Below the pieces are notes generated by a model that was not told the origin of the DNA, did not search any database, and worked only from the letters and a program-made list of their open reading frames with translations. From Candidatus Sumerlaeia bacterium (GTDB lineage Bacteria > Sumerlaeota > Sumerlaeia > SLMS01): DNA of 38,676 nt. Location of the stretch: NCBI GenBank assembly GCA_020831705.1, contig JAFIGB010000418.1:1-38676 (forward strand), read 5' to 3'. This document shows positions 3,108-38,674 of the stretch, one piece after another. Position 1 is the first letter of the stretch. Each line of letters starts with the position of its first letter. The translations under genes and the position numbers were made by a program.

Positions 3108-6050
3108 TTAGTTAATGCCAGGAACTGCGGGGAAGGTGGTGCGAACACCAGCCTGGAAGCGCAGGATCTGCAGCGGATTGGCCAGGGAGAAGGGATTCGA
3201 CCCGGACACATTGAGTGAGTGGGGCGAAGCCACCGCTGATGCGGAGATCGAACCATTGACGATCTGAAGGGCGCGAACGGCGTCGGTCAGGGACACTTCG
3301 CCGTTGCCGTCAAGGTCACCGAGGGGAAGGACAAACCCAACGATTTCAGTGAGGGCCAGCTCATACCAGTCGGCAAGGCCGCTGTTGTTTGTGTCTGCTG
3401 CCAGTGACCCGGGGGTCCACTCGGCGGGGACATCGGTGAGGCCAATGGGAAGCCCAAGGGCCACGTGAACGCCGTCGGGGATACCATTGCCGCTGGTGTC
3501 GAAGGCGAAGGGATTGGCGCCAAGCTGACGAGCAATGGTGTCGGGCAGGCCGTTGCCACTGCGGTCAAGGATGGCGACAATGTTGGTTTCAACGATGTCG
3601 TTGCCCTGGCTGGAGCCATAGAAACGCTTGCCGTCTGTAATGGCTGTAACAGCGGGTTCGTAGATCGCAGGACCGACATAGGGAACAGCCAACGTGCCAT
3701 CAATGTAACCATCGTTGTTGGAGTCTGGACCAACGACGTTGATGTGGGTGTTGTAGCTGAAGTTAAGGCCAGTGTTTTCAACACCTGATGGGGTGGGTCC
3801 AGTGCCGTTAAGGGTCCATGTCACCGGGGTGGCGAAGATGTTGCCTGCATCGGGGGCACCGCCGATGGCGAAGTTACCCGGGCCATTGATCATCTGGAAG
3901 GTGGTTCCGGTGCCGGTAATCGTGCCGATCCGGCTCGAGGTAAGGGATCCGGAGCTTGCGCCACCACGGAACTGAACGACATTGCCCACATTTGTGATGA
4001 TCGACTCCGTGACATTGACTTCGCCACCATTGTCGAGCGCGACAGCACGTCCAACCCGGTGGATCAGGACGTCGGAGGCATTGATGACAGCGGAGGCATG
4101 CTTTGCGGAAAGGGCATCGCCAATGAAGTCTTCAATTGTGGCGTTCTCAAGGTTAACGGTCCCGCCATTGGGGGTTCCGAAGGGGCTGATAATGTCGGCA
4201 GTGGCACCGCCTGGAGCATCACCGCTTACGATGACATTTTCGAGATTCAGCACAGAATCACTGGCATCAAGGGTGAAGAGTGGAGCGGAGAAGCTACCCA
4301 CTGTCGGGGCGATTCTCACACGATCCACGTGGCTGGATTTCGTGTCCTCAACACCGACGATGGTAACTGTTTGGCCGGCACCAATGCGTGTTCCGGGAGC
4401 GAGCTCCTCGAGTTCGCTGATTTCCAGAAGAACATTCGAGCCAAGACCAAGGAAGCGATTGGGGTCGCCCGGATCGATTGCATCACCGAAGGCGTTGTAG
4501 CCCATTGCCAGATCGCCATTTCCGAGGGGATCAAAGAAACGGGGAAACTGGACAGAGTCCGTCCAATCGGGATTGTTGACGATGTCACCGGGGTCTGCTG
4601 CGGGGGCAATGAACAGACCGGTTACACCATAGTCAAGGCGCTCTTCCCAGGGATCATCCGTTTCAGAATTGAATTCGGTGTTCTCTTGAGTTTGGAACAT
4701 GGTGCGGCGGTCAGTGGCCAGGTATTGGAATGCTTCCAGTCCCGTGAAACCATCAATGACCGTATCGAGGTCAAAGTACATGGTCTTGGGAATTGGCGAG
4801 CTCCATGATTGGGCCAATGAGTTCGTGACCGTTGTGTTGGTGAAGGTGTTGCCGTAGGCCATCAGGTATTGACCAAGGTCGGGATCCGCCTCTGGCCATG
4901 TGAAAAAGTAAAGGGCGGTTGTGACATCTTCGAACACATTGTTGTGAACCACCAAGGCGTTTGCGACCGAGGAGTAATCATTACCCGGATTTGGGTCGGT
5001 GAAACTGGCGGGGTTGCTCAACGAAGTGATAATGACACCAATGTTGAATCCGGCTGGGACAATCATCTCACCGGGGGCTTCGGGATCGGCAACCTTGAAA
5101 TCAAAGCTGTTTCCCGAGAAGGTCTGCTTGCCGGCCAATGCATGGCCTGTGAAGCCTGAATTGGCGTTGTCATAGATGGAAATTCTTGTCTGCGCGACAA
5201 AGTCTTCTGCAGTTGCGGGAGTGGTATACCCAAGGGAGGCGGGCCTTGTCTCAACTCCGAAGGTATTGTCTGAAACCACCAGGCCACGAACACGAGTGGC
5301 TGAACCTGCGTTTGTTACCACGCCGGACGTTTGAACGGCGATACCATTGGTCGGCCAAAGGAATGTATTGCCAGTAATGGTCGTGTTCAGGTCGTTTCCA
5401 CCACCACCCCTGAAGACAATGGCACTCCCGCCACCGTAGGCAGTCGTAACGTGGAAGGTATTGTCGGAAATGGTAAGACCATTGTGTGACCCGGAATTAA
5501 TGTGAAATGGAGTGTTGAACTCTGAAAATTCAATTCCGGTGACCGTCAGGTTGGTTGTGTTGGTGCTTTGGAAGCCCATGAAGCCAGTGATCCCGGTCAC
5601 ACCGCCAACTGATGTGAGTTCCGGAGGTGCCGTATCGCCATCGTTCGGGGCAATGATCGTGACCGTCCCCTGACCGTTAATGGTGATGTCGCTGACACCT
5701 GTAGGGGGCCGCAATCCAAGGTAACGATATTGTACCCCGGATATGGTTGCAGAGGAATTCACATTCACAAAAGCACCGCTATCGAGTTCGAAATATGAAT
5801 CACGTGCATTTGCTTCATTCCAGTCGAAGGTGCCCTCAAGGATAAGTGTCTGGCCGGTTGTGAGGCCGCTGAGCGCATTCTTGATGCGGGTGAAATCGTT
5901 GTCCGTGGCGTCCGGTGTTCCACCGGAGGCGGAAATGGAGCTGATGTTAACGACGGTCGCGTTCGCCATGCCGGCGGAAAGCACAATTGCCACAAGAGCA
6001 CTTGCCGGGATAAACTTCCGCAATGCGGATGTTCTGCTGTGATATTTCAT
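3108..6050 (-). CDS. Secreted beta-helix-type protein with C-terminal EF-hand/dockerin-like module (paralogue 2)
   Basis: ORF 3108..6080; preferred start MKYHSRTSALRKFIPASALVAIVLSAGMANA at 6050, preceded by AGGGGGACCCC. C-terminus DLDGNGEVSLTDAVRALQIVNG...NPLQILRFQAGVRTTFPAVPGIN. Confidence 0.9.
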   Translation of the reverse strand: MKYHSRTSALRKFIPASALVAIVLSAGMANATVVNISSISASGGTPDATDNDFTRIKNALSGLTTGQTLILEGTFDWNEANARDSYFELDSGAFVNVNSSATISGVQYRYLGLRPPTGVSDITINGQGTVTIIAPNDGDTAPPELTSVGGVTGITGFMGFQSTNTTNLTVTGIEFSEFNTPFHINSGSHNGLTISDNTFHVTTAYGGGSAIVFRGGGGNDLNTTITGNTFLWPTNGIAVQTSGVVTNAGSATRVRGLVVSDNTFGVETRPASLGYTTPATAEDFVAQTRISIYDNANSGFTGHALAGKQTFSGNSFDFKVADPEAPGEMIVPAGFNIGVIITSLSNPASFTDPNPGNDYSSVANALVVHNNVFEDVTTALYFFTWPEADPDLGQYLMAYGNTFTNTTVTNSLAQSWSSPIPKTMYFDLDTVIDGFTGLEAFQYLATDRRTMFQTQENTEFNSETDDPWEERLDYGVTGLFIAPAADPGDIVNNPDWTDSVQFPRFFDPLGNGDLAMGYNAFGDAIDPGDPNRFLGLGSNVLLEISELEELAPGTRIGAGQTVTIVGVEDTKSSHVDRVRIAPTVGSFSAPLFTLDASDSVLNLENVIVSGDAPGGATADIISPFGTPNGGTVNLENATIEDFIGDALSAKHASAVINASDVLIHRVGRAVALDNGGEVNVTESIITNVGNVVQFRGGASSGSLTSSRIGTITGTGTTFQMINGPGNFAIGGAPDAGNIFATPVTWTLNGTGPTPSGVENTGLNFSYNTHINVVGPDSNNDGYIDGTLAVPYVGPAIYEPAVTAITDGKRFYGSSQGNDIVETNIVAILDRSGNGLPDTIARQLGANPFAFDTSGNGIPDGVHVALGLPIGLTDVPAEWTPGSLAADTNNSGLADWYELALTEIVGFVLPLGDLDGNGEVSLTDAVRALQIVNGSISASAVASPHSLNVSGSNPFSLANPLQILRFQAGVRTTFPAVPGIN

Positions 6051-6390
6051 GAGGGGTCCCCCTGAAAAAAGTTGGTACAAAATTGCAAACAGTCGTCACA
6101 TTGGCGTTGTTCCATGGCAGTCGCTTTACTAGCTCTTATGCAACATACCACTGTGGCGAATCGAGCAAATCCTAATGGCGAGATAACTAAGTCGGCCCCC
6201 AGAGTGTCAAGGAAATTTGACTTTTGTTGTTTGGAACAGTAAACTTATGAAAGGTCCTGTCGAGAAATGGAGGGAACCCCAACGGTTGGCCACGGTCCAA
6301 AATACTTACAACATAGGGCTTATGCTGACAGGGCAACTGCTCCATGATTTCGGGGGGATAATTGGGATACTGAGTTGCGATTTGGTTGTG

Positions 6391-10611: not shown

Positions 10612-11541
10612 ATGCCCAAGGCCCGGAATTGGTGGATTGCCCTCGGCATTGGCGCCTTTGTGTACGCTCTCTCCCCGGCGCTGGTGGGGAATGTCCGCCC
10701 AACGGAATACGATGGGGGTCGAAGCCGCAGCGAGGCCGCCGAAGCCGAACGAAACAGCAGCGCCATCGGTCGTCTGCTGGGGGAAATGCGTACCAGTTTC
10801 AGCGACATCATGTTTATCAAGACCGAGCGATACCACCACATGGGCATCGCCTATGATGCCCACCTCGGTGCCAACCCCGGCCAGGAACTGGATCAATCCC
10901 ACGCCGGAACCGGAACGCTGATTCCTCCCCCGGACAAGGACTTCCGCGGCTTCATCGGCAATCTGGAACGGAACATCCGCCCTTGGAGGGACCCAAGCCT
11001 GGCCCATGTCCACTCCGATGGACGGGAACTCCTGCCGTGGTACCGTCTCATGACATTGAGTGATCCCCATTATATACGGGGGTTCATCCTTGGTGCCTTC
11101 TGGCTGGAGCGGGAGGACCCCGAGGAGGCAATGGCTTTCATCACCGAGGGCCTTGAGAACAATCCCAACTCCTTCCAGATTCTGCTCACCAAGGGCCAGA
11201 TGGTCGACAGGGTGGGGCAACGGATTGGCCGGGAGGGAGGCGATCCCACTCCCAAGCGGAAACGGGCCCTGGAGCTTTTCATCAGGGGGGCGGAAATCGT
11301 CCTCCAGCAACGCCCCCCCGGTGCGGACAAGCCCGACCTGAATTGGTGGACGGAATACATCGAGAACGATGCCCGGGCGGTTTTCCAGTTGGCCGTCCTC
11401 ATGGAGTCCCGTCTCGGGGATGTCGATGTGGCCTACGAACGGGGCCTGCGGTACCTGGAACATATCCCGGATGATCGGATCATCAGGCGGGAACTGGATC
11501 GCATTGAAGCCGATCGCCAAAGTGCCGAGCGGGAAGGTTGA
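10612..11541 (+). CDS. Membrane-anchored hypothetical protein, possibly TPR-like
   Basis: N-terminal hydrophobic helix (NWWIALGIGAFVYALSPALVG); helical C-terminal half (EEAMAFITEGLENNPNSFQILLTKGQM); apparent operon with the permeases. Confidence 0.65.
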   Translation: MPKARNWWIALGIGAFVYALSPALVGNVRPTEYDGGRSRSEAAEAERNSSAIGRLLGEMRTSFSDIMFIKTERYHHMGIAYDAHLGANPGQELDQSHAGTGTLIPPPDKDFRGFIGNLERNIRPWRDPSLAHVHSDGRELLPWYRLMTLSDPHYIRGFILGAFWLEREDPEEAMAFITEGLENNPNSFQILLTKGQMVDRVGQRIGREGGDPTPKRKRALELFIRGAEIVLQQRPPGADKPDLNWWTEYIENDARAVFQLAVLMESRLGDVDVAYERGLRYLEHIPDDRIIRRELDRIEADRQSAEREG

Positions 11542-11698
11542 AAAAGCTTTCCTTGCACCTAAGAGCTTGACGAAACCAAGGTTTGTGCGTCGATAATCCC
11601 ATCGATTTTTCGATTCGGGAAATAATCGGCAAAATAGAAACCGAGAGAACAAGGCTGGGACACCAGGTCCAGTCCCGCTGTCCGGAGGATTTCAACCA

Positions 11699-13462
11699 AT
11701 GGCAAGCGCCATGGAACGCAAGCTGGGCGAGATGCTCGTCAAGGACAACGTCATCAGTCGCGATGACCTTGAGAAGGCAATCACCCAGCAGGAAACAAGC
11801 AAGAGAAGCCTTGGCAGTGTGCTCATCGATCTGGGCCTGACCTCCGAGTGGGAAATGGCAGCCGCGCTCGGCAAGCAGCTCAATGTCCCCTTCATCACCC
11901 TTTCCCACTACGAAATCGACGAACTCGTCCTCAACAGCATCCCCCGGGAGATCGTTCGCAAGTACAAGATCGTCCCCGTCGACAAAACCGGCGACACCCT
12001 CACCATCGCCCTTGCCGACCCCTCCAATATTTACCTTCTTGACGAACTCAAGATCCTCACCAAAAGCGACATCATCCCCGTTATTTCCTTCGAGTCGGAC
12101 ATTACCGAGGCTATCGGGCGTTATTATCCCGGCCTCAATGATGACGCCAATCAGGCCAATATCAACGAGGCACTCAAGGATATCAGTGACGAGGACATGC
12201 GCTCGGCCATGCAAAGCGCCCTCGAAGATGACAACTTTGACATGGAGGAATCCAAGGAGGATGAGGACGAGGACGGAGCCGAAATCAACGACGCACCGGT
12301 CATCCAGCTCGTCAACATGATCATCTCTGAGGCTCTCAAGATGGGAGCCTCCGATATCCATATCGAGCCCTACGAGAAGAAACTGCGTCTTCGTTACCGT
12401 GTCGACGGTGTCCTCCACGAGATGACCAACCCGCCCAAGAAGTTCCAAAACGCCATCATCTCGCGTATCAAAATCCTTTCCGAACTCGACATTGCCGAAC
12501 GGCGTCTCCCCCAAGACGGACGTTTCCGCGTCAAGATTCAGGGCCGCCCCATCGACTTTCGTGTCAGCACCTGCCCGGTGATTTATGGCGAAAAGGTCGT
12601 TATGCGTATTCTCGACCAGGGCAACCTGATGCTCAATCTCGAGGATCTCGGCTTCGATGCCGACATCAAGAAGAAGTTCGAGGATGCCATCCTCCGCCCC
12701 TACGGCATGTGCCTGATCACGGGTCCGACCGGTTCGGGTAAATCGACGACGCTCTATTCCGCTCTTTCCCGCATCAATGACCCATCGAAGAACATCAGCA
12801 CCTGCGAGGATCCGGTGGAATACAACCTCCCGGGGATTAACCAGGTGAATGCCCGCCCCGATGTGGGGCTGGATTTCGCGGCGGCGCTCAAGTCGTTCCT
12901 GCGTCAGGATCCCGACATCATCATGGTTGGTGAGATTCGTGACCTGGAAACCGGCGCCATTGCCGTCAAGGCAGCGCTCACGGGCCACCTTGTGCTTTCC
13001 ACCCTGCACACGAATGATGCCCCCGGCACCGTCCAGCGGCTTCTCAACATGGGTATTGAGGATTTCCTGATCACGGCCTCGCTGAACATGATTCAGGCCC
13101 AGCGCCTTGCCCGGCGCATCTGCAAGAAATGCCGGTATGAATATAAACCCGATGCCATCGAGGCGAAGGTCCTTGGCGTCGATTTCAATGAAAAAGAGGA
13201 CCTGCTCTTCTACAAGGGCAAGGGATGTGATGTCTGCCGCCACACAGGATACAAGGGCCGCGTGGGCCTTTACGAGGTCATGGTGATGGACGATCCCCTG
13301 CGTGATGCGATCATGGCGGAAATGCCCCCGTCGCAATTCAAGCGGGCATCCATTGCCCAGGGCATGGAATCCATGCGCCAGGCCGCGATCAAAAAAGTCC
13401 TTCAGGGAGCCACCACGGTGGAGCAAACACTGGAGCTTACCGTTGAGGATCCCATCGATTGA
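11699..13462 (+). CDS. pilB: Type IV pilus / type II secretion assembly ATPase (PilB/GspE family)
   Basis: GPTGSGKSTTLYSAL Walker A, DPDIIMVGEIRDLETG, GHLVLSTLHTNDAPG, tetracysteine CKKC...CDVC, N-terminal MshEN-like domain; GGAGGA upstream. Confidence 0.93.
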   Translation: MASAMERKLGEMLVKDNVISRDDLEKAITQQETSKRSLGSVLIDLGLTSEWEMAAALGKQLNVPFITLSHYEIDELVLNSIPREIVRKYKIVPVDKTGDTLTIALADPSNIYLLDELKILTKSDIIPVISFESDITEAIGRYYPGLNDDANQANINEALKDISDEDMRSAMQSALEDDNFDMEESKEDEDEDGAEINDAPVIQLVNMIISEALKMGASDIHIEPYEKKLRLRYRVDGVLHEMTNPPKKFQNAIISRIKILSELDIAERRLPQDGRFRVKIQGRPIDFRVSTCPVIYGEKVVMRILDQGNLMLNLEDLGFDADIKKKFEDAILRPYGMCLITGPTGSGKSTTLYSALSRINDPSKNISTCEDPVEYNLPGINQVNARPDVGLDFAAALKSFLRQDPDIIMVGEIRDLETGAIAVKAALTGHLVLSTLHTNDAPGTVQRLLNMGIEDFLITASLNMIQAQRLARRICKKCRYEYKPDAIEAKVLGVDFNEKEDLLFYKGKGCDVCRHTGYKGRVGLYEVMVMDDPLRDAIMAEMPPSQFKRASIAQGMESMRQAAIKKVLQGATTVEQTLELTVEDPID

Positions 13463-13560
13463 GAACCTGACCAGCGGGGCAAATTGACAATCCCCCTTGA
13501 TCCGGTTTCGCCAATCACCTAGGAACGCTTTTCGAGAGAACTCAGGAGAACGAACTCCCA

Positions 13561-14778
13561 ATGCCTGTTTTTCAATATGTGGCGCGCGCCAGTGACGGGA
13601 GGCAACTAAGTGGAACCGCCGAGGCCAGCGATCAGGCCACGGTCGTCCGCATGCTTCGCGAAAAAGGACTGACGGTGACCTCGATTCAGACCGGGGCCGT
13701 CAAGGGCGCAAAAAAGAAAAAGGAACTCAAGGGCAAGGGCGGCCGCGTCAAGCTAGAGGACATCGTTATCATGTCCCAGCAGATGTCGGTCATGATCCGC
13801 TCGGGTCTTCCCCTCATCGAGGTCCTCAACATCCTCGGGGAACAGACCGAGCGCCGTTCCCTCGCCGAGGTCCTCCGCCAGGTGGAAAAGGACGTCGAGG
13901 GGGGCTCCTCCCTCACCGAGGCGATCCAGAAACACCCCAACGTCTTCAACACCTTCTACCTTTCCATGGTCCGTGCCGGTGAGGCTTCCGGTATGTTGGA
14001 CTCCATTCTGGATCAGGTGGCGACCTACCTGGAACGCCTCGCGGCCCTCCAGCGCAAAATCAAGTCGGCCCTGATGTATCCCACCACCGTCACGCTGGTG
14101 GCCATCGGCATTACCTTCTTCCTTATGGTGAAGGTCGTTCCCGTTTTCGAGGACATCTTCGAATCCCTCGAAGGCGATCTCCCCGTCCCCACGATGATCA
14201 CCATCGCCATTTCCCAGACCCTGCAATCGTACTGGTGGCTGGCGCTGCTCATACTGGTCGTCCTTTATGTTATCCTCTATCAATGGGGGAAAACGTACTC
14301 GGGACGCATGACCATCGACCGATTTAAACTCACCATGCCGATCTTCGGGGCGCTGCTCCTCAAGTCCAGCGTCGCCAAGTTCTGCCGCACCCTCGGGACA
14401 CTGATTCGGTCCGGCGTGAACATTCTCTACGCCCTTGAAATTACCGCCAAGACTTCCGGCAACGCCGTCATTGAGGCGGCCGTCTATAAGACCCGGTCGA
14501 GCATCCAGGCGGGCGAATCACTGACCAAGCCCCTCGTCGAGGCAAACGTCTTCCCCCCCATGGTGACCCGCATGATCGACGTGGGCGAGCGCACCGGTGC
14601 CCTTGAAGGCATGCTCATCAAGATCGCCGACTTCTACGAGGACCAGGTCAACACCATGGTCGCGGGCCTCACCTCCCTCATCGAACCCCTCCTCATCGTC
14701 GGACTGGGCGTCGTCATCGGATTCATTGTCGTTTCGATGTTCATGCCCATGTTCAAGATGATCGAGATGCTCAGTTAG
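13561..14778 (+). CDS. pilC: Type IV pilus / type II secretion inner-membrane platform protein (PilC/GspF family)
   Basis: MPVFQYVARASDGRQLSGTAEA...; GEASGMLDSILDQVATYLE; VGERTGALEGML...EPLLIVGLGVVIGFIVVSMFMPMFKM. Confidence 0.93.
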   Translation: MPVFQYVARASDGRQLSGTAEASDQATVVRMLREKGLTVTSIQTGAVKGAKKKKELKGKGGRVKLEDIVIMSQQMSVMIRSGLPLIEVLNILGEQTERRSLAEVLRQVEKDVEGGSSLTEAIQKHPNVFNTFYLSMVRAGEASGMLDSILDQVATYLERLAALQRKIKSALMYPTTVTLVAIGITFFLMVKVVPVFEDIFESLEGDLPVPTMITIAISQTLQSYWWLALLILVVLYVILYQWGKTYSGRMTIDRFKLTMPIFGALLLKSSVAKFCRTLGTLIRSGVNILYALEITAKTSGNAVIEAAVYKTRSSIQAGESLTKPLVEANVFPPMVTRMIDVGERTGALEGMLIKIADFYEDQVNTMVAGLTSLIEPLLIVGLGVVIGFIVVSMFMPMFKMIEMLS

Positions 14779-21710: not shown

Positions 21711-23729
21711 ATGAAGAACGAAAAATCACAAATCATCATCTCCGACCCTGAAAAGCAGGTCTTCCGCCACTCGGAGGATTATATCCTCTTCGGGCTGCTG
21801 GTCAGCCATGGGCTGTTCCATGCGGGGGACATGGAGACCCTTGCCCGCGCCCAGGAGGAGTCGGATGGTGAACCCCTTGTTGAACTGCTTTCCCGATCCA
21901 GTGAATTGCCGGACAAAACCCGGTCGAACCTGAAAAAGCTCCTCGGGATTCTTCAGGTCCCCGAACTTTCCAACTTCCTTCCCAGCTCGCTGCCGCCGGT
22001 GGAAACCATTGTGGAGACGTTACGCCAGCCACCGGTGGCATCACCGGTAGCTCCAACGGTCCGTATTGATCCCGCCCAAAAAGACACCGAGATTGATTAC
22101 CCACATCGGGGCGATGCTTCAACCATTCCCGCTCGTACTGAATTCAACCACACGGTGGGGAGCGATTCGCCGTCATACACCAAGTCACTCACTGCCGAGG
22201 AAATTAAGCGGCTGGAAAAGGCCCGGGTGAAGGGCGACCTGATCGGCGAGGAGTTGGCGGGACATGTGATCATTGATCGCCTGGGGAGCGGCGGCCAGGG
22301 GGATGTCTTCCTCGCCAAGCAATTGAGCCTGAACCGGTATGTGGCGCTGAAGAAACTCGCCATTCCACCGAGTGCGGACCGCACCCATTTCATCGAGGCC
22401 TTCCGGGCCGAGGCGCGGACGCTCGGCAAGATCAGTCACAGCAGAATCGTCAAGGTTTACGAAATTTTTGAGGTGAACGAAACCGCCTTCTTCACGATGG
22501 AATACGTCAGCGGCAACACCCTCAAGGATGTCGTGGCCCAGGCAGGCGGCGCCCCCGCCCTCGATGTTGTGGCAAACCTGGCCTGCCAGGCGTGCGGTGC
22601 CTTTGAGCTGACGGCAGCGGAGGGTCTTGTCCATCGTGATATCAAACCGGCAAACATGCTCCTCGATACCAACGGTGACCTGAAGATCGTGGACTTCGGT
22701 CTTGCCGCGGCGGCGGCAGAAATGGCGGCCTCGGAGACAACCTTCTTTGCCGGGACGCCAAGCTTTGCCTCGCCGGAGCAATTCGAACTCAAGCCCCTCA
22801 CCCCCATGAGCGATCTATACTCCCTCGGGGCAACGCTCTATTACACCCTTACCGGACGCCCACCCTTTTCCCACCGAACACTTATTGATCTCAAGAACGC
22901 CCACCTTACCCAGACTCCCGATCCTCCCTCACAGATCAACAACGAGATTCCCACCGAGATTGACCGAATTGTACTCCGCATGATGGAGAAGGATCCGGAA
23001 AAACGATATGCTTCATTCTCGGACTGCTTTTCGGATTGGGAACAGGTCCTCATCAAGTCCTCCAAGGGCTCCGTCTCCCCTGCCAGGCAATTGCTGGCCG
23101 ACTCGCTGCTGCGATTTGGCAAGGAAGAGAAGGAGGGAATTACCAAGACGGCCTTCGGGCTGGGAGCGGCCTGGATTCTTGTCACCGGCGGGGCGATGCT
23201 TGGGGAGGCGCGGTTGCGCCATGGAGGCATGTCCTGGTTCCTTGATGCCTGCGGTCTATACGGAACGATCCTTCTGGCCTTTTCCCTCTCCTGTATCTTT
23301 TATGTGGCCATGGCGCGCCGGAAGTGGCTCCCTGTTTTTGGCAGCCTGCGCACCTGGCTCTATACACACATTGCGACGGCAATTCCAGCGGTGATCCTCA
23401 TCCTGATTCATTCGGGGAACTTCCTGGTCAACGTTGGTTCCGGCCCGAGGATGCCTCCACCCGTCCTGACAATTGTCATCAGCATCACCCTGCTGGTGAC
23501 GGCGATCAGCGGCACCGTGGGGCTTCTGATCTTTCGCAACCTGCGTCGCAAGGTTTTGCTTCAGCAACTTCAACTTCGCGGCGGGGAAATGTCTGAGGGC
23601 GACCAGAACAGGCTCCTGCTGGGCGCACGGGTTCTGTCGGGCTGGCGCCTGATTCATTACCCGCTGGCAATTTTCTTTATTCTGCTAACGATCCTTCATA
23701 TCCTGCAGGTCATCCGCTTCACGGTGTAA
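21711..23729 (+). CDS. Ser/Thr protein kinase fused to a five-helix membrane domain with two H-x13-H (putative bis-heme b) helices
   Basis: Kinase: LGSGGQGDVFLAK, VALKKL, HRDIKPANML, DFGLA, FASPEQF, DLYSLGATLYYTLTGRPPF. C-terminus: helices THIATAIPAVILILIHSG (His codons 23367 and 23409) and LIHYPLAIFFILLTILHILQ (His codons 23655 and 23697). Confidence 0.88.
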   Translation: MKNEKSQIIISDPEKQVFRHSEDYILFGLLVSHGLFHAGDMETLARAQEESDGEPLVELLSRSSELPDKTRSNLKKLLGILQVPELSNFLPSSLPPVETIVETLRQPPVASPVAPTVRIDPAQKDTEIDYPHRGDASTIPARTEFNHTVGSDSPSYTKSLTAEEIKRLEKARVKGDLIGEELAGHVIIDRLGSGGQGDVFLAKQLSLNRYVALKKLAIPPSADRTHFIEAFRAEARTLGKISHSRIVKVYEIFEVNETAFFTMEYVSGNTLKDVVAQAGGAPALDVVANLACQACGAFELTAAEGLVHRDIKPANMLLDTNGDLKIVDFGLAAAAAEMAASETTFFAGTPSFASPEQFELKPLTPMSDLYSLGATLYYTLTGRPPFSHRTLIDLKNAHLTQTPDPPSQINNEIPTEIDRIVLRMMEKDPEKRYASFSDCFSDWEQVLIKSSKGSVSPARQLLADSLLRFGKEEKEGITKTAFGLGAAWILVTGGAMLGEARLRHGGMSWFLDACGLYGTILLAFSLSCIFYVAMARRKWLPVFGSLRTWLYTHIATAIPAVILILIHSGNFLVNVGSGPRMPPPVLTIVISITLLVTAISGTVGLLIFRNLRRKVLLQQLQLRGGEMSEGDQNRLLLGARVLSGWRLIHYPLAIFFILLTILHILQVIRFTV

Positions 23730-23763
23730 CAGGATCACGAAACCCACCCGGCCCAGGAGCATC

Positions 23764-24324
23764 ATGTCCCAAGCCATCGTTGAAAAACGCGCACCAGTCG
23801 CCCTCAGTATCGCCGCCTCCATCGCCGCGGTGGCCTTTTGTGGGTACCTGTGGTATGCAGGGGCGGAAAACCCCCGTGTCTATCACAGCAACATGGCCTT
23901 CAATTATCACAACCAATACAGCGCCTTCCTGACCTGTTACGATTGCCACCGCCCGGAGAAAAGCCGTTACGGCATGGCCCTTGAAATGTCCTGCCACACC
24001 GCGGGCTGCCACGGGGAATACGATCCCTCCACTTCCCGGGAGGACGCCTTCGCCATGAAGCTTGAGGAATGGGGCTATTACCCCGACGCCGAAGAGCGGG
24101 CGAACCACTTCCTCGACCTTCACGAAGCCTTCTCCCACCAGGAATGCTGGACCTGTCATGCAGAGCATACTGTCTCGCCCCGGGTGGTTCCGGAAGGATG
24201 GACCCTTTGGAGCGAAAGAGCGACCGTCCAATCCAACGCTCTCAGGAATCTGGAGTCGGAGAACTGGACCTCGCTGTTGGCAGCGAATACCCATGAGAAA
24301 AAGGGGGCCACCAAGGGTAACTAA
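23764..24324 (+). CDS. Membrane-anchored triheme c-type cytochrome
   Basis: N-terminal TM anchor (VALSIAASIAAVAFCGYLWYAG); CYDCH (23935-23949), CHTAGCH as CX4CH (23992-24012), CWTCH (24145-24159); extra His residues available as axial ligands; 34 nt after kinase stop. Confidence 0.85.
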   Translation: MSQAIVEKRAPVALSIAASIAAVAFCGYLWYAGAENPRVYHSNMAFNYHNQYSAFLTCYDCHRPEKSRYGMALEMSCHTAGCHGEYDPSTSREDAFAMKLEEWGYYPDAEERANHFLDLHEAFSHQECWTCHAEHTVSPRVVPEGWTLWSERATVQSNALRNLESENWTSLLAANTHEKKGATKGN

Positions 24325-24462
24325 ACGAATTCCAGGGTCAAATTTCATCCGTCATCAATGCTCCACTTGACGATTCAACGCGCACGCCGCACGCTGAGTA
24401 TGTCGTCTGCATGCCTTACTTCCGTGCATGCTCTTCACCTATGGACTGGAGACTTGGTACTG

Positions 24463-25185
24463 ATGAGCGGTGTCCACATGGAGCCCCGAATATGGTCGTT
24501 GAGGACAAGCGCACTTTTTGAGGACGCCACTGAATCGGTGCTCAATTGGGCCGAGGACAGCGCCAGGGAGCGAAGGTTTCAGAGGGGTGAGGTGATCACC
24601 GTGCCCGAGTCTGCCGGGCGCTCCATCTGTGTCGTCCTGGAGGGGCAGATCAAGCTGCGTACTTTCTCGGAATCGGGGAAGGAACAGATCATCGATGTTG
24701 CCTCGGTCGGCGATACATTCGGCCCCCTCGAAAAGATTCTCGATAACGGTTATCGTGTCGCCAGCAAGGCGAGTGACATGGCCACGGAGGCGGTGGCCCT
24801 GAGCAAGGGTGCCCTTGTTTCCTACAATATTGATGAATTCCATCGCCTGGTGGAACAGCGGCCGTTCGTTATCCTGAATGTCTCCCGAATACTGGGGCTC
24901 AAGCAGAGGCGCTTCGAAATTCGACTCACCCGCCTGCTCTACCGCAGTGCAACAGGCAAGCTCGCCGGGCTCCTTTCCGAGCTTGGAGAGCGATTCGGGG
25001 AGGAGGATGGTTCCCACATCCGTCTTCCCTTCCGACTGACCCACCAGGAGATGGCCTCCATTATCGGCGCCAAACGGGAGACCGTCTCCGAAGCGATGGC
25101 CCTCCTTGAGTTGGAAGAGGTGATTCGAGCGGAAAAAGGCGGCATTCTCGTCCTTCAACCGGAAAGGCTCGACTCTATCCTCTGA
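24463..25185 (+). CDS. Crp/Fnr family transcriptional regulator
   Basis: cNMP-binding-like beta-barrel (ITVPESAGRSICVVLEGQIKLRTFSESGKEQIIDVASVGDTFGPLE) and winged HTH LTHQEMASIIGAKRETVSEAMALLE; start chosen at MSGVHMEPR (ORF open from 24358). Confidence 0.87.
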   Translation: MSGVHMEPRIWSLRTSALFEDATESVLNWAEDSARERRFQRGEVITVPESAGRSICVVLEGQIKLRTFSESGKEQIIDVASVGDTFGPLEKILDNGYRVASKASDMATEAVALSKGALVSYNIDEFHRLVEQRPFVILNVSRILGLKQRRFEIRLTRLLYRSATGKLAGLLSELGERFGEEDGSHIRLPFRLTHQEMASIIGAKRETVSEAMALLELEEVIRAEKGGILVLQPERLDSIL

Positions 25186-27506: not shown

Positions 27507-27935
27507 ATGGTATCTTCCGTTTCGTCAGGAGACCTGAACCAGATGAAGGCACCAAAGCGTCGGAGACCCTTGAAGCGCGGTTTCATGCACCCTCCACCAC
27601 CTCGGCAGGAATTGGAGCAACTGGCGGAAAGGGTGTATTATCATGGAAGCCCCGAACATAAACGACACCCTTCATTCGCAGGCCCGCCAGCGCCAAAAGC
27701 AACTTCCTCCCTCTGCGACCCAAGATTTTCCAACCAGCAGGACATGCTTACGAAATGGCTGCGAAGAGCCGTCGAGCAGGGGCAAATCAGCAATAACTGG
27801 GATGGTGAATTCCCGAGGAACATCTGGGCGAAGGAGGATGGAGTCGTCTACGAGGCTCGGGTTGTCAACAGGTGCAATGGCGGGTATAAGGGATGGCCAC
27901 TGGAGGACTTTGAAGTCCCCGAGGAGCTTCTGTGA
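27507..27935 (+). CDS. Small hypothetical protein, operon partner of the ImmA/IrrE-like gene
   Basis: YYHGSPEHKRHPSFAGPPAPKATSSLCDP...WDGEFPRNIWAKEDGVVYEARVVNRCNGGYKGWPLEDFEVPEELL; ATGA overlap with next ORF. Confidence 0.7.
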   Translation: MVSSVSSGDLNQMKAPKRRRPLKRGFMHPPPPRQELEQLAERVYYHGSPEHKRHPSFAGPPAPKATSSLCDPRFSNQQDMLTKWLRRAVEQGQISNNWDGEFPRNIWAKEDGVVYEARVVNRCNGGYKGWPLEDFEVPEELL

Positions 27936-29215
27936 TGGCGTTGAAACTGGCTGTTGAATGGGAGGACCCCAAGAGGGCCAAGGGCGCCGAGTTGCGGGCA
28001 ACGTGGGCCTCCCTTCAAATAATCGCGGGCAACGATGAAAACTCCAATGTTGTCACAAAGCATTACGACGAATATCTCAACACCGTCCGCAATCAGGTTT
28101 ACTGCCCCGTTTACCCCCTCGCCGAGTGGATTACCCATCATTGGTTCAGGATGCTCCATGGAACAGAACGTTCCAACCTGGGGCACCCCGATTTACGCCT
28201 CGGTGCGGAAGGCTTCGCCCTCCCCTGCCTGAAATTCTGTCCCGAGGGTGAAGAAGTTCGATTGGTTTGGACCCCATACCAACACCGTTCCGCCCATGTG
28301 GAGTTCATATCCAAGGGGGACGTCACATTGCACCGTTCGGCTGTTGAGGCCGAATTGTATGGTTTCCTTAATCGTGTGATGGCCCGGTTGGAAGAACACC
28401 AAATTTCAGATACACCCTTCCAAACCGAATGGCAAAGCATTCTGAATCTGGATCAGGAGGAACGGGAGTTCTGCATTGCTGCGGCAAATCTTGGCCTCGA
28501 CCCCTTCGATTTGGAAGATGGCGTGGAGGACAAGATCCTTGAAGTGGCAGGACTGCTTCACAAGGACCTCACGGAAGAATTTTTTCCTGCGGCCAATGCG
28601 GAGTCCCTTCTGGAACAGGCTGATACGGTTGTCGCCGCCATCGCAAAACTGGAGGACCAACGAAAAGTAAGTCCCCAGTTCCAGAAACTAAGAAACCAGT
28701 TGGTCAACTTCGATTCGGAGATGAAGGCGTGGGAGAAGGGATACGAAGCCGCCCGATGCGTTCGCAACGCCCTGGGTCTCGAGGACAAACCTGTCACCCT
28801 TGAAATGCTCGAAGGCTTCGCCCTTCCGCTGGAGTTTGATGACCTTACCAGGACACAAAGCATCGAAGGCATTGTCTCCCGAAATGGATCAACGGCGGGG
28901 ACGGTGGTTCGCTCCGGGTTCCTGTCGCGACGGACCGAGAATGTGAAGTTCGCGCTGGGACGCATGCTCGGGGAAAGCCTTTGGCTTCCAACGTCAAGTG
29001 CCGCACTTGTCACCAGGGCCAGAACAACACGCCAAAAAACAAACCGAGCCTTTGCCGCCGAACTCCTCGCACCAGCAGCCGAGCTGAAGAAGCGCCTCCA
29101 CCACCATGAAATTTCACCCGATGAGGTCTCCGACCTTGCTGAAGAATTTGAAGTCTCCACCTATGTGATTGAGTATCAAATCCATAATCATCGGCTTGCT
29201 GTCATTCGAGGTTGA
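27932..29215 (+). CDS. ImmA/IrrE-like protein lacking the HExxH zinc motif
   Basis: C-terminal KFALGRMLGESLW at the position of the usual RFTLAHELGH, then RQKTNRAFAAELLAPAAELKKRL...VSDLAEEFEVSTYVIEYQIHNHRL; N-terminal YPLAEWITHHWFRMLHG. Confidence 0.65.
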   Translation: MMALKLAVEWEDPKRAKGAELRATWASLQIIAGNDENSNVVTKHYDEYLNTVRNQVYCPVYPLAEWITHHWFRMLHGTERSNLGHPDLRLGAEGFALPCLKFCPEGEEVRLVWTPYQHRSAHVEFISKGDVTLHRSAVEAELYGFLNRVMARLEEHQISDTPFQTEWQSILNLDQEEREFCIAAANLGLDPFDLEDGVEDKILEVAGLLHKDLTEEFFPAANAESLLEQADTVVAAIAKLEDQRKVSPQFQKLRNQLVNFDSEMKAWEKGYEAARCVRNALGLEDKPVTLEMLEGFALPLEFDDLTRTQSIEGIVSRNGSTAGTVVRSGFLSRRTENVKFALGRMLGESLWLPTSSAALVTRARTTRQKTNRAFAAELLAPAAELKKRLHHHEISPDEVSDLAEEFEVSTYVIEYQIHNHRLAVIRG

Positions 29216-29413
29216 TTCACAACGCCACAGGTAAATAAGATGGCGGTAGGTAAAGGACCTTGAGAGCGTGAAAAACTCAGGGATGGCCTTATTGCCCTAC
29301 TGGATGACGTGACCACCCCAACCTACCACCGCCCCCCGATTTCCGTTGTGTTCCCCCCCGCCCATGGGGGCAAAGTTGACCCAGCAGGAATTTGTGGATA
29401 ACGAGGATCTAAC

Positions 29414-30415
29414 ATGGCTGAAAACCTGACAAGGGACACCATTCGCGAAATATACGAGCTTCCCATTCCGGAACTCCTTTACCGAGCCGCCACCGTCCAT
29501 CGCGCCCATCACGACCCCACCAAGGTGCAGTTCTGCCAACTCGAGAACATCAAATCGGGGAAGTGCCAGGAAGATTGCAAGTATTGCCCGCAAAGTGCCC
29601 ACTACGACGTGGAAATCCCCGAATACGGGCTTGAAAGCGTCCAGCAGGTCATCGAGGCAGCCCGTGAGGCCCGCGATGGGGGCGCCACGCGCTTCTGCAT
29701 GGGTGCCGCATGGCGGGGTCCCCGCAACGAACAGGAATTCGAGCGCGTCCTCGACATGGTCCGTGCCATTCGTTCCATGGGGATGGAAGCCTGCGTGACC
29801 CTCGGACTCCTCAACGAAGACCAGGCCGCCCGCCTTGCCGAGGCCGGGTTGACCTCCTACAACCACAACCTGGACACCTCGCCGGAATATTACGAAAAGA
29901 TCATCACCACACGGACCTTCGAGGATCGCCTCAAGACGATCCGCAACGTCCGCAAGGTTGGCGTCAGTGTATGCTCCGGCGGAATCGTCGGCATGGGTGA
30001 ATCCCGCGAGGATCGCATCGGGATGCTTCATTCCCTGGCAACACTGGACCCACCGCCGGAAAGCGTCCCCATCAACCTGCTCGTCCCCGTGGAGGGAACG
30101 CCGCTGGAAAAGGCGCCCCCCCTTGGCAATATCGAACTGGTCCGCTGCATTGCCACCGCCCGCATCCTCATGCCCACCAGCCGTGTTCGCCTCAGCGCAG
30201 GCCGCCAGGGCATGACCACCGAAATGCAGGCCCTTTGTTTCTTCGCCGGTGCCAACTCCATCTTTACCGGTGAAAAGCTGCTGACCACCCCGAACCCCGG
30301 AGAAGGGGACCAGGCACTCATGGAAATCCTTGGAATGACCAGCGAATCCGCCGAGGAAACCAACCAGGAATTCGCCCAAGCCACCGCCGCCAACGGCATC
30401 AACGGCCAGAATTAA
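29414..30415 (+). CDS. bioB: Biotin synthase
   Basis: Radical-SAM CQEDCKYCPQSAHY; GATRFCMGAAWRGP; YNHNLDTSPEYYEKI; SVCSGGIVGMGES. Confidence 0.97.
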   Translation: MAENLTRDTIREIYELPIPELLYRAATVHRAHHDPTKVQFCQLENIKSGKCQEDCKYCPQSAHYDVEIPEYGLESVQQVIEAAREARDGGATRFCMGAAWRGPRNEQEFERVLDMVRAIRSMGMEACVTLGLLNEDQAARLAEAGLTSYNHNLDTSPEYYEKIITTRTFEDRLKTIRNVRKVGVSVCSGGIVGMGESREDRIGMLHSLATLDPPPESVPINLLVPVEGTPLEKAPPLGNIELVRCIATARILMPTSRVRLSAGRQGMTTEMQALCFFAGANSIFTGEKLLTTPNPGEGDQALMEILGMTSESAEETNQEFAQATAANGINGQN

Positions 30416-32757: not shown

Positions 32758-34442
32758 CAGATCAATGGTCTCCCCAGGGCTACGTAGAGTCGTGAAAGGG
32801 CAATTTGGTAATTCAGCAGGGTGTTCGAGTAACGGGTTTCCGCCTCGAAAAGTTCATCCTGCGCAAGGCGGACTTCCGTGATGCTGGCGAAGCCGACCTC
32901 GAACCTGCCATTGATCAGTTCGAGCGACTTTCTTGCCCGTTGGACGTTGCGGCTCAAAACCATCAGCTGCGCCTCCGTTGTGAGCACCTGACGGCGGTTG
33001 TTCAGGACATCCTGGGTGAGGTTCCGTTCGTCAGAAAGGCGGTCCGTACGGCGCTGCTCAAGCGTCAAGCGGGAACGCTTGGCGGTCTCGCGGCGCTGGA
33101 TGTTGACCAGGGGCACCCGGAGTGCCAATCCGGCATCCCATCCCGAGTCGCGCCATCCCCACGAGGAGTCAAAATGGCTCCCCTGATCTTGTCGCCCATA
33201 CCCGGCATCGAAGTCCAACTGGGGAAGGAGGGCGTTGCGATCCACCTGGGAGTCGATTTCGGCGAGGGCAATGGCGAGGTCGGACTGCATCAGCTCCAGC
33301 CGCTGGTTCAACGCCTCGGCGACAACATCGTCCTGCGTGGGAAGATCCACCCTGCCCTGGCGGCTCAATTCCTCGGTAATGTCGATGAGGGAGATGGGCG
33401 TCGACAGAGGAAGACCGAGGAGGATGAGCAGGTTCTCCCGCTGATCATCGAGGGCACGGCGACGGCCAATGGCGCGTTCGAGTTCGGAAAGATACGAGGT
33501 TTCCGCACGAAGGATTTCCGATTCATCGACACGGCCAATCTCGAAGCGGATCCGTGTTTCCTCCACGAAACGGAGGCGCTCGCGGATCGCTTCCGCCGAG
33601 ACCTGAAGTTCCCGGGCGCGCTGAAGGATCGAAAAATAGGAGGTGATGACGCTTTGAATGACATCGCGTTCGACCAGCTTGTCGGCCAGGATGCGGTTCA
33701 TTTCATTGATGCGGGCGGAGCGCAGGGCGGCGGTCCCGACGTCCATTCCGCCTCCACGAAGGAGGGGCTGGATGTACCGAATATCGGCACCGGTTTCATA
33801 TTGGCGTGTATTTTCCGTACCAAATCGTCCACGCGCGGTCGAATCGGTACGACTTACATCGGAGTCAATAACCACCCGTCCGGCGGTGGGAAGGGTGACC
33901 CCCGCCTCGACTCCCGCACTGGATCGCAGGCCGGTGGTGCGCTGGGTGGCGCCGCCTTCCGCGAAGGATCTGTTGGTGCTCTGCTCGGAAACCCGGGTGC
34001 CCCCGACAAGATCCACGAAGGGAATAAAGGGGGCCTCGGCGGAGCGCACGCTGGAGCGGGCGATTTCCAGGCTTCGCCGCGAGGATTCGAGACGGAAGTT
34101 ATACTCCAGCGCAATATCCACCAGATCGGCCAGGGTGAGGAGGGAATAAAGCTCGGTTTCAGGGACTTCTGCGAAGACAACGCCGGTGGTGACGGCATCG
34201 GTGACCTCCACGGGGATGGAGGCGAGGAAGAGCGTCCCCAGGTCGGTTTCCTCTCCTTCGGTGTATCGGAGGGTGTCATAATCGGGGATTTCTCCCGGTT
34301 CGATCATGATCAACCCATCGTCCGGTTCGCTGTATTGACCGATATCCATCGTCCCATCCATTGCCGCCAGGGGCTGAAAGAGGAGAAGTGCCAGGGCGGG
34401 TGGTGCCACCATGGCCACTGCGGCGCTGAAAGTTCTGATCAT
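32757..34442 (-). CDS. TolC family outer membrane efflux protein
   Basis: LTLADLVDIALEYNFRLESSRRSLEIARSSVRSAEAPFIPFVDL; repeated TolC halves ending FEVGFASITEVRLAQDELFEAETRYSNTLLNYQIALSRLYVALG; preferred start MIRTFSAAVAMVAPPALALL. Confidence 0.9.
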   Translation of the reverse strand: MIRTFSAAVAMVAPPALALLLFQPLAAMDGTMDIGQYSEPDDGLIMIEPGEIPDYDTLRYTEGEETDLGTLFLASIPVEVTDAVTTGVVFAEVPETELYSLLTLADLVDIALEYNFRLESSRRSLEIARSSVRSAEAPFIPFVDLVGGTRVSEQSTNRSFAEGGATQRTTGLRSSAGVEAGVTLPTAGRVVIDSDVSRTDSTARGRFGTENTRQYETGADIRYIQPLLRGGGMDVGTAALRSARINEMNRILADKLVERDVIQSVITSYFSILQRARELQVSAEAIRERLRFVEETRIRFEIGRVDESEILRAETSYLSELERAIGRRRALDDQRENLLILLGLPLSTPISLIDITEELSRQGRVDLPTQDDVVAEALNQRLELMQSDLAIALAEIDSQVDRNALLPQLDFDAGYGRQDQGSHFDSSWGWRDSGWDAGLALRVPLVNIQRRETAKRSRLTLEQRRTDRLSDERNLTQDVLNNRRQVLTTEAQLMVLSRNVQRARKSLELINGRFEVGFASITEVRLAQDELFEAETRYSNTLLNYQIALSRLYVALGRPLI

Positions 34443-34652
34443 CTGAGAATCCTGTCCCCGCTTGTTGAGTGCGATTTTTCCCGCCGGTTGAGGTGTGTCC
34501 ACTTCGGCGCGAACCAAACTGTCAGCAAGAAGCAGGGCACTGGCTCAACAGGAGTTTTGGGAAAGTCTCCTTGCCCTTCAGGCCCCGTGGTCTCTTCTCT
34601 TTCCTGTCGCCCGGGAAGGGCGTCACAATGTTTCATGGGGTTTACCGGTTTC

Positions 34653-35495
34653 ATGGAAGTCATCCAGACGATCAAACAGATGCGCGAGGCCGCCTCCAAG
34701 GTACGGGCCGCCGGGAAGTCGATCGCCTTTGTGCCCACCATGGGAGCCTTCCATGGCGGCCATATTCGCCTCATGCAGAAGGCCAAAACCCTCGGCGACA
34801 TCACCGTGGTGTCCTCCTTCGTCAATCCCAAGCAGTTCAACGAGAAGGAAGACCTCAACCGCTACCCCCGCGATCCCGAACGCGACCGCCTGAAGGCCGA
34901 AAAGGCCGGGGTTGACTATTACTTCGAACCCGCCGTGGAGGAAATTTACCCCCCCGGATTCCTCACCACCGTCAACGTGAGCTACCTGTCCAGCAAGCTC
35001 GAAGGCGCCTCCCGTCCCGGGCACTTTCGCGGCGTCACCACCGTCGTCCTCAAATTTCTCAACATCGTGTCGCCCAACACACTGGTCATGGGCTACAAGG
35101 ATGCTCAGCAATTCACCATTATTCACCAGATGATCGAGGACCTCGCCCTCGACGTTCACCTGGTCGGAGTCCCCACCGCCCGCGAACGTGACGGTCTTGC
35201 CATGTCGAGCCGCAACGTCCTCCTCTCCCCGGAAGATCGTGATAAGGCCCTCTCCCTCAACCGCGCCCTCAAGCGGGTTCACTTTCTTGTAAAAAAGCAG
35301 GGGATTCTTCACACCGGCGAACTGCTCCAGGCCGTGCGTTCGGCCATAAACTCCTCCGGTGCCGAGCTTGATTACGCCGAGATCGTCAACCGCACCACCC
35401 TCGAACCGGTCGACCACGTCATGCGCGGCGGCACGTACGTTCTCGTTGCGGCGCGTGTTGGAGGGGTTCGCCTCATCGACAGCACGCGAATTTGA
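34653..35495 (+). CDS. panC: Pantothenate synthetase (pantoate-beta-alanine ligase)
   Basis: FVPTMGAFHGGHIRLMQKAK; VVSSFVNPKQFNEKEDLNRYPRD; GASRPGHFRGVTTVVLKFLNIV; GYKDAQQFTII; RERDGLAMSSRN. Confidence 0.96.
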   Translation: MEVIQTIKQMREAASKVRAAGKSIAFVPTMGAFHGGHIRLMQKAKTLGDITVVSSFVNPKQFNEKEDLNRYPRDPERDRLKAEKAGVDYYFEPAVEEIYPPGFLTTVNVSYLSSKLEGASRPGHFRGVTTVVLKFLNIVSPNTLVMGYKDAQQFTIIHQMIEDLALDVHLVGVPTARERDGLAMSSRNVLLSPEDRDKALSLNRALKRVHFLVKKQGILHTGELLQAVRSAINSSGAELDYAEIVNRTTLEPVDHVMRGGTYVLVAARVGGVRLIDSTRI

Positions 35496-37006: not shown

Positions 37007-38674
37007 CCCTAATCCTTCACCCTACCTGCCACAAAGCAGATGACCCCCTGCCCGCCCCCATGTTTACTTGGGTTTGCGAAGACTCAACCAAACAAGAAAG
37101 GCGGCCAGAGGGTGACCAAGACCAAACAACAGAGAGTAAAGCGGATCAAGCTGGACTTTGCTCCCCACGAGTCGGTGACAAGCTTCGGTGGGTTTGCCGT
37201 GATCAAGCGCCTGATCCTGCGGCTCGGCATCGATGGCCTGCTCGAGAAGCATCTCCCGACACGTCGGGGATATTCGCTCCCTGAGATTGCTTGCAGCGCC
37301 GTGGCGGGATTGCTCTCCGGAGCACGGGGAACGGTGGCAACCGAGGCGGTGCGTCACGATCCGGCACTTCGAAGGCTCCTGGGCTTGTCGGGTTCGCCGG
37401 AGGAGGCGACGTTTTGGCGTTCGCTCGGGGATGCGGGTGCGCCCAAGGCACTGGCAGGTTTTGATGACATCTATGGCAAGGTCGCCCGTCGGGCGATTCT
37501 GCGTTCCTCGCGCACGGCACTCTTTGACCATGGGTTCGTTCCTGTCTTTATAGACGGAACGCTGCTGGAGGGCTCGGAGCGACGGGAGGGGACCAAGGTT
37601 CTCAAGGAAAAGGGGAAGGGCCTTCTGTGGACGGCTGGGTTTGTCGGCCCTTTTCCCTGTGCGCAGCGTCTAGCTGCCAAGGGAAAAGGTGAGGGTGAGG
37701 TAACTCACGCCCGTCAACTCCTCGAGCGTATAGACCATGACATTCTGCTCCCGACGGGGCTCAAAAAAGACGCCCTGGTGCTGATGGATTCGCTCCATGG
37801 AAACGGCCCGACCCTGGACCTTATCGAGGAGCGGGGCCTTGACTTTATCATTGGCGCGAGGGGGCTTTCGCGCGTCCAGGACGTGCTTTCCGAGCAGCAC
37901 GAGTCCCAGTGGACGCCCTCTCCGGAGTATGATGCGAAGCATCCAGGCATTGAGGAATCGGCGGTCTGCGTGGCGTCTGTGCACTGCGAGGATTGGAAGC
38001 ACAAGAGGATGATCATTGGGCGGCGCTGGAGGAAGAAGGGGGAGTTCGTGTGGAACTATACAGCGGTTCTGACAAGCCTTCGAGAGGATGATCCTCGACT
38101 TGGGGCATGCGAGAATCACGGTAAGTTTGCCAAGAAAATATGGAATCTATACAATCGCAAGGGTGCGCATGAAAATCATTTCAAGAACCTGCTTGCAGAC
38201 CTGGGCCTTCACCACCCTCCCTGCCAGGAATGGATACGCAACGCGGGCTTTTACGCCATCGGCCTTCTTGGCGGTCTGATCGGGATGACGTGTGATGTAC
38301 TGACAAGCAAGCCTTCAAAGGCGAGGCGGCGTCTTGCGACCCTTCGGCGATGGCTCCTCGCCGTGCCGGCCCGCGTGACCTGCCATGGGCGGACAGCGGT
38401 GGCGACGGTGCTGGGCCTGTCGGATTGGTGGCGAAGTTGGAGCGCGGATCGATTTGCCCGAGCGGCCCGATGTTGATTTAAGACCCGCCTCGCCCCAAGA
38501 ACCCCAAAAACCTCTCCCATCCCAAAGAATCCCCCGCAGAACCCGAAAAAACAACGAAGCCCAGCCCGCCAAATGGCGGGGCAGGCCGAACACGCCGAAT
38601 TTTCTTCCGCGAAAATGCCGCGAAGCCCTTGGAGCGAAAAAAAGGGCCGGGGAAATTATGTGAAGGATTGGGGG
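37007..38674 (+). mobile_element. IS1380-like insertion sequence
   Basis: Transposase ORF bounded by CCCTAATCCTTCAC (37007-37020) and inverted GTGAAGGATTGGGG (38660 to about 38674), differing at one position. Confidence 0.8.
37040..38476 (+). CDS. DDE transposase, IS1380-like (the N-terminal ~30 residues of the ORF may not be translated)
   Basis: SVTSFGGFAVIKRLILRLGIDGLLEKHLP; VFIDGTLLEG; LVLMDSLHGNGPTLDLIEERGLDFIIGAR; YNRKGAHENHFKNLLADLGLHHPPC. Confidence 0.88.
   Translation: MTPCPPPCLLGFAKTQPNKKGGQRVTKTKQQRVKRIKLDFAPHESVTSFGGFAVIKRLILRLGIDGLLEKHLPTRRGYSLPEIACSAVAGLLSGARGTVATEAVRHDPALRRLLGLSGSPEEATFWRSLGDAGAPKALAGFDDIYGKVARRAILRSSRTALFDHGFVPVFIDGTLLEGSERREGTKVLKEKGKGLLWTAGFVGPFPCAQRLAAKGKGEGEVTHARQLLERIDHDILLPTGLKKDALVLMDSLHGNGPTLDLIEERGLDFIIGARGLSRVQDVLSEQHESQWTPSPEYDAKHPGIEESAVCVASVHCEDWKHKRMIIGRRWRKKGEFVWNYTAVLTSLREDDPRLGACENHGKFAKKIWNLYNRKGAHENHFKNLLADLGLHHPPCQEWIRNAGFYAIGLLGGLIGMTCDVLTSKPSKARRRLATLRRWLLAVPARVTCHGRTAVATVLGLSDWWRSWSADRFARAARC

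Follow-up and report, generated by a model that had tools for sequence, protein, structure and literature searches.

The kinase-cytochrome locus

Here we describe a gene pair in a 38,676-nucleotide (nt) stretch of DNA from Candidatus Sumerlaeia bacterium (assembly GCA_020831705.1, contig JAFIGB010000418.1), referred to below as the window. The first gene encodes a Ser/Thr kinase fused to a membrane domain with five transmembrane (TM) helices and four conserved His, and the second encodes a membrane-anchored triheme cytochrome c. The pair stands amid unrelated genes. In the kinase protein, a variable N-terminus is followed by a Hanks-type kinase domain and then by five hydrophobic segments, with features as follows.

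21711-23729 (+): Ser/Thr kinase fused to a five-TM, four-His membrane domain, 672 amino acids, ATG start at 21711
22272-23012 (+): Hanks-type kinase domain, residues 188-434, from the PF00069 match and alignment
23151-23720 (+): membrane domain, from hydropathy, loop charges and AlphaFold helices
~23151-23210 (+): TM1
~23241-23312 (+): TM2
~23346-23426 (+): TM3
~23457-23534 (+): TM4
~23643-23720 (+): TM5
23367-23369 (+): His553, cytosolic half of TM3, predicted inner heme b ligand with His649; invariant in kinase and non-kinase relatives
23409-23411 (+): His567, periplasmic half of TM3, predicted outer heme b ligand with His663; same invariance
23655-23657 (+): His649, cytosolic half of TM5, predicted inner heme b ligand; same invariance
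23697-23699 (+): His663, periplasmic half of TM5, predicted outer heme b ligand; invariant except in the truncated L023

Residues 188-434 match PF00069 (Pkinase) with an E-value of 9.8e-47 (160 bits, cut-off 31.7), and the motifs GSGGQGDV (G-loop), VALKK, HRDIKPAN, DFG and SPE are intact. Across the kinase-side alignment, which comprises eight full-length sequences with the window protein included, K214, E234, H308-R309-D310, N315, D328-F329-G330 and P355-E356 are unchanged in all eight. By domain match and catalytic residues, the window protein is a Hanks-type Ser/Thr kinase. The same alignment contains no invariant Cys, which argues against a thiol switch. Two other assignments were considered and set aside: a PknB/PASTA kinase (NF033483, 248 bits against a cut-off of 450, kinase domain only, with no PASTA match in Pfam) and an anti-phage kinase, for which the PADLOC matches are confined to the kinase domain.

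The membrane domain and its four histidines

His553 and His567 lie in the third hydrophobic segment and His649 and His663 in the fifth, forming two exact H-x13-H pairs. The intact kinase motifs, the five TM helices and both pairs had been read by an earlier first-pass annotation of this DNA, and all were found where it had placed them. Residues 455-672 contain five His, and when these residues were shuffled, two helices each carrying H-x13-H arose in 25 of 200,000 shuffles. The four membrane His are the only invariant TM His in all eight kinase fusions, in which the membrane domains of the relatives are 31-57% identical to that of the window. The loops on the kinase side are Arg/Lys-rich by a count of loop charges, and therefore the kinase and these loops are predicted to be cytoplasmic, in agreement with the first-pass annotation. 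This would place His553 and His649 toward the cytoplasm and His567 and His663 toward the periplasm. Based on the His pattern and its context, this is a probable bis-heme b domain.

The partner cytochrome

The first-pass annotation had also placed a triheme c protein with a membrane anchor 34 nt downstream of the kinase gene. This holds, though the middle site is CX4CH rather than CXXCH.

23755-23759 (+): Shine-Dalgarno-like AGGAG upstream of the cytochrome start
23764-24324 (+): membrane-anchored triheme cytochrome c, 186 amino acids, N-terminal anchor and periplasmic C-terminus, 34 nt 3' of the kinase gene
23908-23910 (+): His49, predicted distal heme c ligand; invariant non-motif His
23935-23949 (+): heme c site 1, CYDCH; invariant C58/C61/H62
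23992-24012 (+): heme c site 2, CX4CH (CHTAGCH); invariant C77/C82/H83
24121-24123 (+): His120, predicted distal heme c ligand; invariant non-motif His
24145-24159 (+): heme c site 3, CWTCH; invariant C128/C131/H132
24166-24168 (+): His135, predicted distal heme c ligand; invariant non-motif His

Across an alignment of seven cytochromes, only A4, E7, P37, the three heme motifs and exactly three additional His (H49, H120 and H135) never vary; the CX4CH spacing of site 2 is kept in every aligned relative. This pattern is what three bis-His, six-coordinate c hemes would leave, and judging by its conservation the protein is a pure electron carrier. It also bears on whether the kinase might be controlled by O2, NO or CO at one heme rather than by electron occupancy. 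Heme-based gas sensors with a kinase output are known, as are c-type heme sensor domains (PMC12889525, PMC3460858). Here, however, three additional His are available for three c hemes and four His for two b hemes, so that all sites are predicted to be six-coordinate and none open, which makes a gas or small-ligand sensor quite improbable.

Heme motifs of the CXXCH or CX4CH type, each with a distal His, are the hallmark of c7/c3-type cytochromes and are found here. The window protein scores 19 bits against Cytochrom_c3_2 (cut-off 25), and one relative, L022, scores 31.9 against Cytochrome_C7 (cut-off 24.8). In three relatives the partner cytochrome is longer, with approximately five heme sites (L021:8325-9608, L022:8559-9752, and L009:299-1489 (minus strand)). 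Each of these three also has a Pro-rich linker, and its C-terminal domain resembles, on reading, a thioredoxin fold that lacks CXXC; in the two that were scanned (L021 and L022), Pfam gave this domain no match at 1e-3.

Pairing across Sumerlaeota

Among 40 Sumerlaeota genomes, a protein search detected the membrane domain in the window genome and seven others, and profile searches agree. All eight copies are kinase fusions, and in all eight genomes a multiheme cytochrome lies directly downstream. The gap is 34 nt in the window, and in the six relatives where it was measured it ranges from 2 to 13 nt. Conversely, a cytochrome profile matched the same eight genomes and one more, G024, in which the copy (L064, contig C201) begins inside the cytochrome at the very contig end, with the upstream gene unassembled. 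Co-occurrence of kinase and cytochrome gives a Fisher p of 1.2e-7, a value that ignores relatedness, with all positives in one order. An all-against-all BLAST of the neighbourhoods returned the kinase-cytochrome pair as the common gene order, the exceptions being two closely related genomes and a few scattered matches; the gene calls used for this were rough, and further shared genes may be missed. Conservation and pairing together support the proposal of the first-pass annotation that the kinase, the probable bis-heme b domain and the triheme cytochrome form one redox-signalling unit.

All eight fusion genomes, like many other Sumerlaeota, carry cytochrome c assembly (PF01578) and heme-copper oxidase (PF00115) genes, and because the assembly genes are present heme c can be made in these eight. 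When two short peptide patterns were run against 85,462 species genomes, the matches were to Sumerlaeota and one Hydrogenedentota fragment only. Since the scan used just two short patterns, the fusion may be more widespread than it indicates. No relative was found in viral contigs, and on plasmids the kinase-side query had no match, with distant non-kinase relatives found by other queries. The Hydrogenedentota fragment, L023, is a kinase-type membrane domain joined to an unrelated open reading frame (ORF) on a 2.7 kb contig that looks chimeric or of low coverage. A weak match at L032 falls in a complex I region that reads as NuoH-like and was rejected as a false positive.

A wider four-His family without the kinase

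A profile search of Hydrogenedentota yielded relatives of the membrane domain in TM proteins that have no kinase, and tblastn with two of these proteins led to plasmids of Emticicia (Bacteroidota) and Sphingobium (Alphaproteobacteria). Aligned by hhalign, the kinase and non-kinase sets match with 98% probability and an E-value of 7e-14. Within the non-kinase set, invariance is limited to four His, two Gly and one Trp, the Trp preceding the third His, and the positions of these residues match those of the kinase set. A multiheme cytochrome c is adjacent or in the same gene cluster for 9/9 non-kinase members with readable flanks. These counts omit L053/L066, where the match spans only part of the domain on a 2.7 kb contig and where we found neither an intact four-His ORF nor a multiheme neighbour. 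Judging from these alignments, the window membrane domain is a member of an unnamed, putative b/c conduit family. The first-pass proposal thereby survived a search for relatives without the four His, for relatives without a cytochrome neighbour, and for a known heme-free family that would explain the helices.

The non-kinase loci, including Emticicia EMTOL_RS21090, Sphingobium B6S01_RS18450 and the Hydrogenedentota loci (a TM protein with a cytochrome c3-family protein), thus share the four His, two Gly, Trp and multiheme c neighbour with the Sumerlaeota fusions. They differ in their partners: those seen on the cytoplasmic side are Pyr_redox and/or 4Fe-4S proteins (some cNMP-binding), some loci have DUF547, and a kinase occurs in none. 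Pyr_redox and/or 4Fe-4S partners were found at L034, L054, L055 and L051. In L034, a 4Fe-4S/pyridine-nucleotide oxidoreductase is fused to the TM part, and in Emticicia it is encoded beside the TM gene. The oxidoreductase beside the Sphingobium TM gene has an added cyclic nucleotide monophosphate (cNMP)-binding domain, and L051 has cNMP-binding and 4Fe-4S domains beside the TM gene. In a tree of 17 kinase-fusion and non-kinase sequences, with deep branches that are long and unsure, the kinase fusions form one group (100/98). On these grounds, the cytoplasmic oxidoreductase end of a b/c conduit was replaced by a kinase without a redox cofactor, apparently once in this sample.

These relatives are also an argument for regarding the b/c module as a working electron-transfer enzyme, for example with quinone, that is tuned by the fused kinase or whose partners the kinase tunes, the kinase itself not being redox gated. 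With their NAD(P)H/4Fe-4S partners they look like real conduits, and CbcL-type proteins unite a diheme b part with multiheme c for quinol oxidation (PMC6295460). The kinase fusions, however, carry no cytoplasmic redox partner domain, and the unrelated genes around the pair in the window supply no obvious electron acceptor or donor enzyme. We therefore consider such an enzyme unlikely for the kinase fusions.

The loci of this family are L034, L035/L065, L036/L067, L049, L050, L051, L052, L054:3914-4759 and L055:4806-5696. At L055:2329-4806 and L051:2307-3728 (minus strand), cyclic-nucleotide-binding and 4Fe-4S domains (in Sphingobium also Pyr_redox) are encoded upstream of the membrane gene, and a cNMP-controlled electron conduit is a possible reading of this arrangement. 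L035/L065 and L049 combine the four-His domain with a C-terminal DUF547, which in L035 has a Pfam match, and a cytochrome with at least three heme sites comes next. The family is annotated as "hypothetical protein" in both plasmid records that carry annotation and has no convincing Pfam family. It is present with multiheme cytochromes in at least four phyla and merits a family model of its own.

A putative redox-gated receptor kinase

Taken together, the kinase-cytochrome pair probably constitutes a two-gene redox receptor, a redox-gated receptor kinase. Sensing is the simplest function, because the oxidoreductase end of the conduit is replaced by a kinase that has neither a redox cofactor nor an invariant Cys. 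In its more specific form, electrons themselves would be the signal: a b/c heme wire would end in a kinase, and heme occupancy or electron flow would directly gate Ser/Thr phosphorylation, a proposal for which we see the chances as evenly balanced. The periplasmic bis-His triheme cytochrome, anchored in the inner membrane, would exchange electrons with a respiratory or periplasmic redox pool and equilibrate with two b hemes held between TM3 and TM5, the outer by His567/His663 and the inner by His553/His649. Electron occupancy of these hemes most likely shifts the packing of the TM helices and so switches the kinase. The redox state of the envelope, such as over-reduction at low oxygen, would then be converted into protein phosphorylation in the cytoplasm. 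Heme occupancy, electron transfer, kinase gating, the signal and the targets are all elements that we infer. Sumerlaeota have been described as possessing aa3- and bd-type oxidases and as living flexibly under oxic and anoxic conditions (PMC8092238), where a redox sensor would be useful; this is context rather than evidence.

Several results weigh against the receptor proposal. No Pfam or NCBIfam family scores above its cut-off over the membrane domain, and Foldseek searches of the PDB and viral structures with two AlphaFold models gave nothing at E <0.001. The models contain the expected long helices, with mean pLDDT (predicted local distance difference test) values of 72 and 76, which is moderate confidence. 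At the fusion loci, we found neither a conserved downstream target nor a conserved phosphatase. Real electron transport by the module would also leave the cytochrome conserved in the same way.

The missing family and structural matches would fit membrane helices that are heme-free, with the His serving as structural or metal ligands and the cytochrome as a separate respiratory component. Against this, the same four His, one helix apart on TM3 and TM5, persist across four phyla, multiheme c accompanies them at every locus with readable flanks, and the sub-threshold matches point to cytochrome b families. We consider a heme-free domain very unlikely. Of the families that the first-pass annotation had named for comparison (Ferric_reduct, Ni_hydr_CYTB and DUF4405), all gave matches below curated cut-offs where scores were given. 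For Ni_hydr_CYTB (PF01292, prokaryotic cytochrome b561), where the cut-off is 30.1 bits, the window domain scores 8.4; weak matches occur in five of the eight kinase members (best E 0.012), and the best match among non-kinase relatives has an E-value of 3.9e-5. Ferric_reduct (PF01794) has no match to the window protein and weak matches in single members only.

The likeness to ferric reductases and NOX proteins claimed by the first-pass annotation holds in part. As in the Ferric_reduct/NOX/STEAP fold, two TM helices, here TM3 and TM5, each carry a conserved pair of His spaced by one helix, and in the NOX/STEAP/YedZ proteins ('ACRATA') TM3-TM5 form the conserved core (PMC546010). On the other hand, hydropathy and the models give five TM helices rather than six, there is no FAD/NADPH domain, and neither Pfam nor the fold search supports membership. 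The top Foldseek rows from the PDB include cytochrome b6f, cytochrome b561 and NOX5 at E-values of 0.2-1 beside F-BAR proteins, and were not used as evidence. Sequence searches of the PDB with the kinase-side query and its profile had no match, and a wider profile gave unrelated chance matches only. Judged from its context and the pattern of its His, the domain looks as if it functions as a bis-heme b domain, but we do not assign it to the NOX/STEAP or cytochrome b561 families.

Relation to known redox systems

Envelope redox sensing is commonly attributed to histidine kinases that sense quinones or thiols, and ArcB and RegB are bacterial redox sensor kinases that report respiratory redox state across the membrane. 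To our knowledge, ArcB, RegB and the heme c chemoreceptors are histidine kinases or methyl-accepting chemotaxis proteins (MCPs), with quinone, thiol or single heme c sensing, and none of them combines a Ser/Thr kinase with a bis-heme b domain in the membrane. The heme c chemoreceptors resemble the proposed receptor in reporting respiratory redox state across the membrane (PMC3460858).

STT7/STN7, a thylakoid Ser/Thr kinase, is activated by cytochrome b6f (PMC13287000). Like it, the Sumerlaeota protein is a membrane Ser/Thr kinase associated with a b/c heme system, although activation by an electron-transport-chain complex is a proposal here. STT7 acts with cytochrome b6f as a separate protein, whereas the Sumerlaeota kinase carries its predicted heme b domain on the same chain and has a multiheme c partner. 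In addition, STT7 cysteines are implicated in regulation (PMC11808413), and the Sumerlaeota fusions have no counterpart to these among their invariant residues. CbcL/MtrH/MtoC likewise have a membrane b-type domain with two putative hemes together with periplasmic multiheme c (PMC6295460). However, CbcL has a HydC/FdnI-like b part and a fused c part, in contrast to the unnamed family described here, which lies below the Ni_hydr_CYTB cut-off and carries a kinase.

In the open-access literature that we searched, no description was found of a kinase joined to a heme b domain in the membrane. Within literature and genome searches of limited extent, an electron-gated kinase would be a mode of transmembrane signalling so far undescribed in bacteria. 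If the proposal is true, the sensor is a dedicated electron wire on a Ser/Thr kinase. Heme electron transfer and kinase output would then be measurable together in a compact system of two proteins, and the arrangement would be a single-polypeptide analogue of the photosynthetic cytochrome b6f-STT7 problem.

Neighbouring genes

The next gene after the cytochrome in the window, on the same strand, encodes a Crp-type regulator, and the first-pass annotation had suggested a possible Crp/Fnr transcriptional output of the redox unit. By our reading, its likely start is Met41 of the ORF (nt 24478), leaving a gap of ~150 nt to the cytochrome, where the longest ORF would give 33 nt. The part from Met41 on reads as lacking the N-terminal Cys cluster of FNR. 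By tblastn, no similar sequence was found in any of the seven homologous neighbourhoods. An output through this gene is hardly probable, and we treat it as a neighbour only.

Elsewhere in the window, a pantoate ligase ORF at 32805-35495 has an apparent N-terminal extension that overlaps a minus-strand gene and was rejected as an ORF artefact. Long ORFs at 3108-6080 (-), 11483-13561 (-), 27932-29215 (+) and 29297-30379 (-) have no Pfam match at 1e-5, and some may not be genes. A DDE transposase is encoded at 37040-38476 (+), near the contig end.

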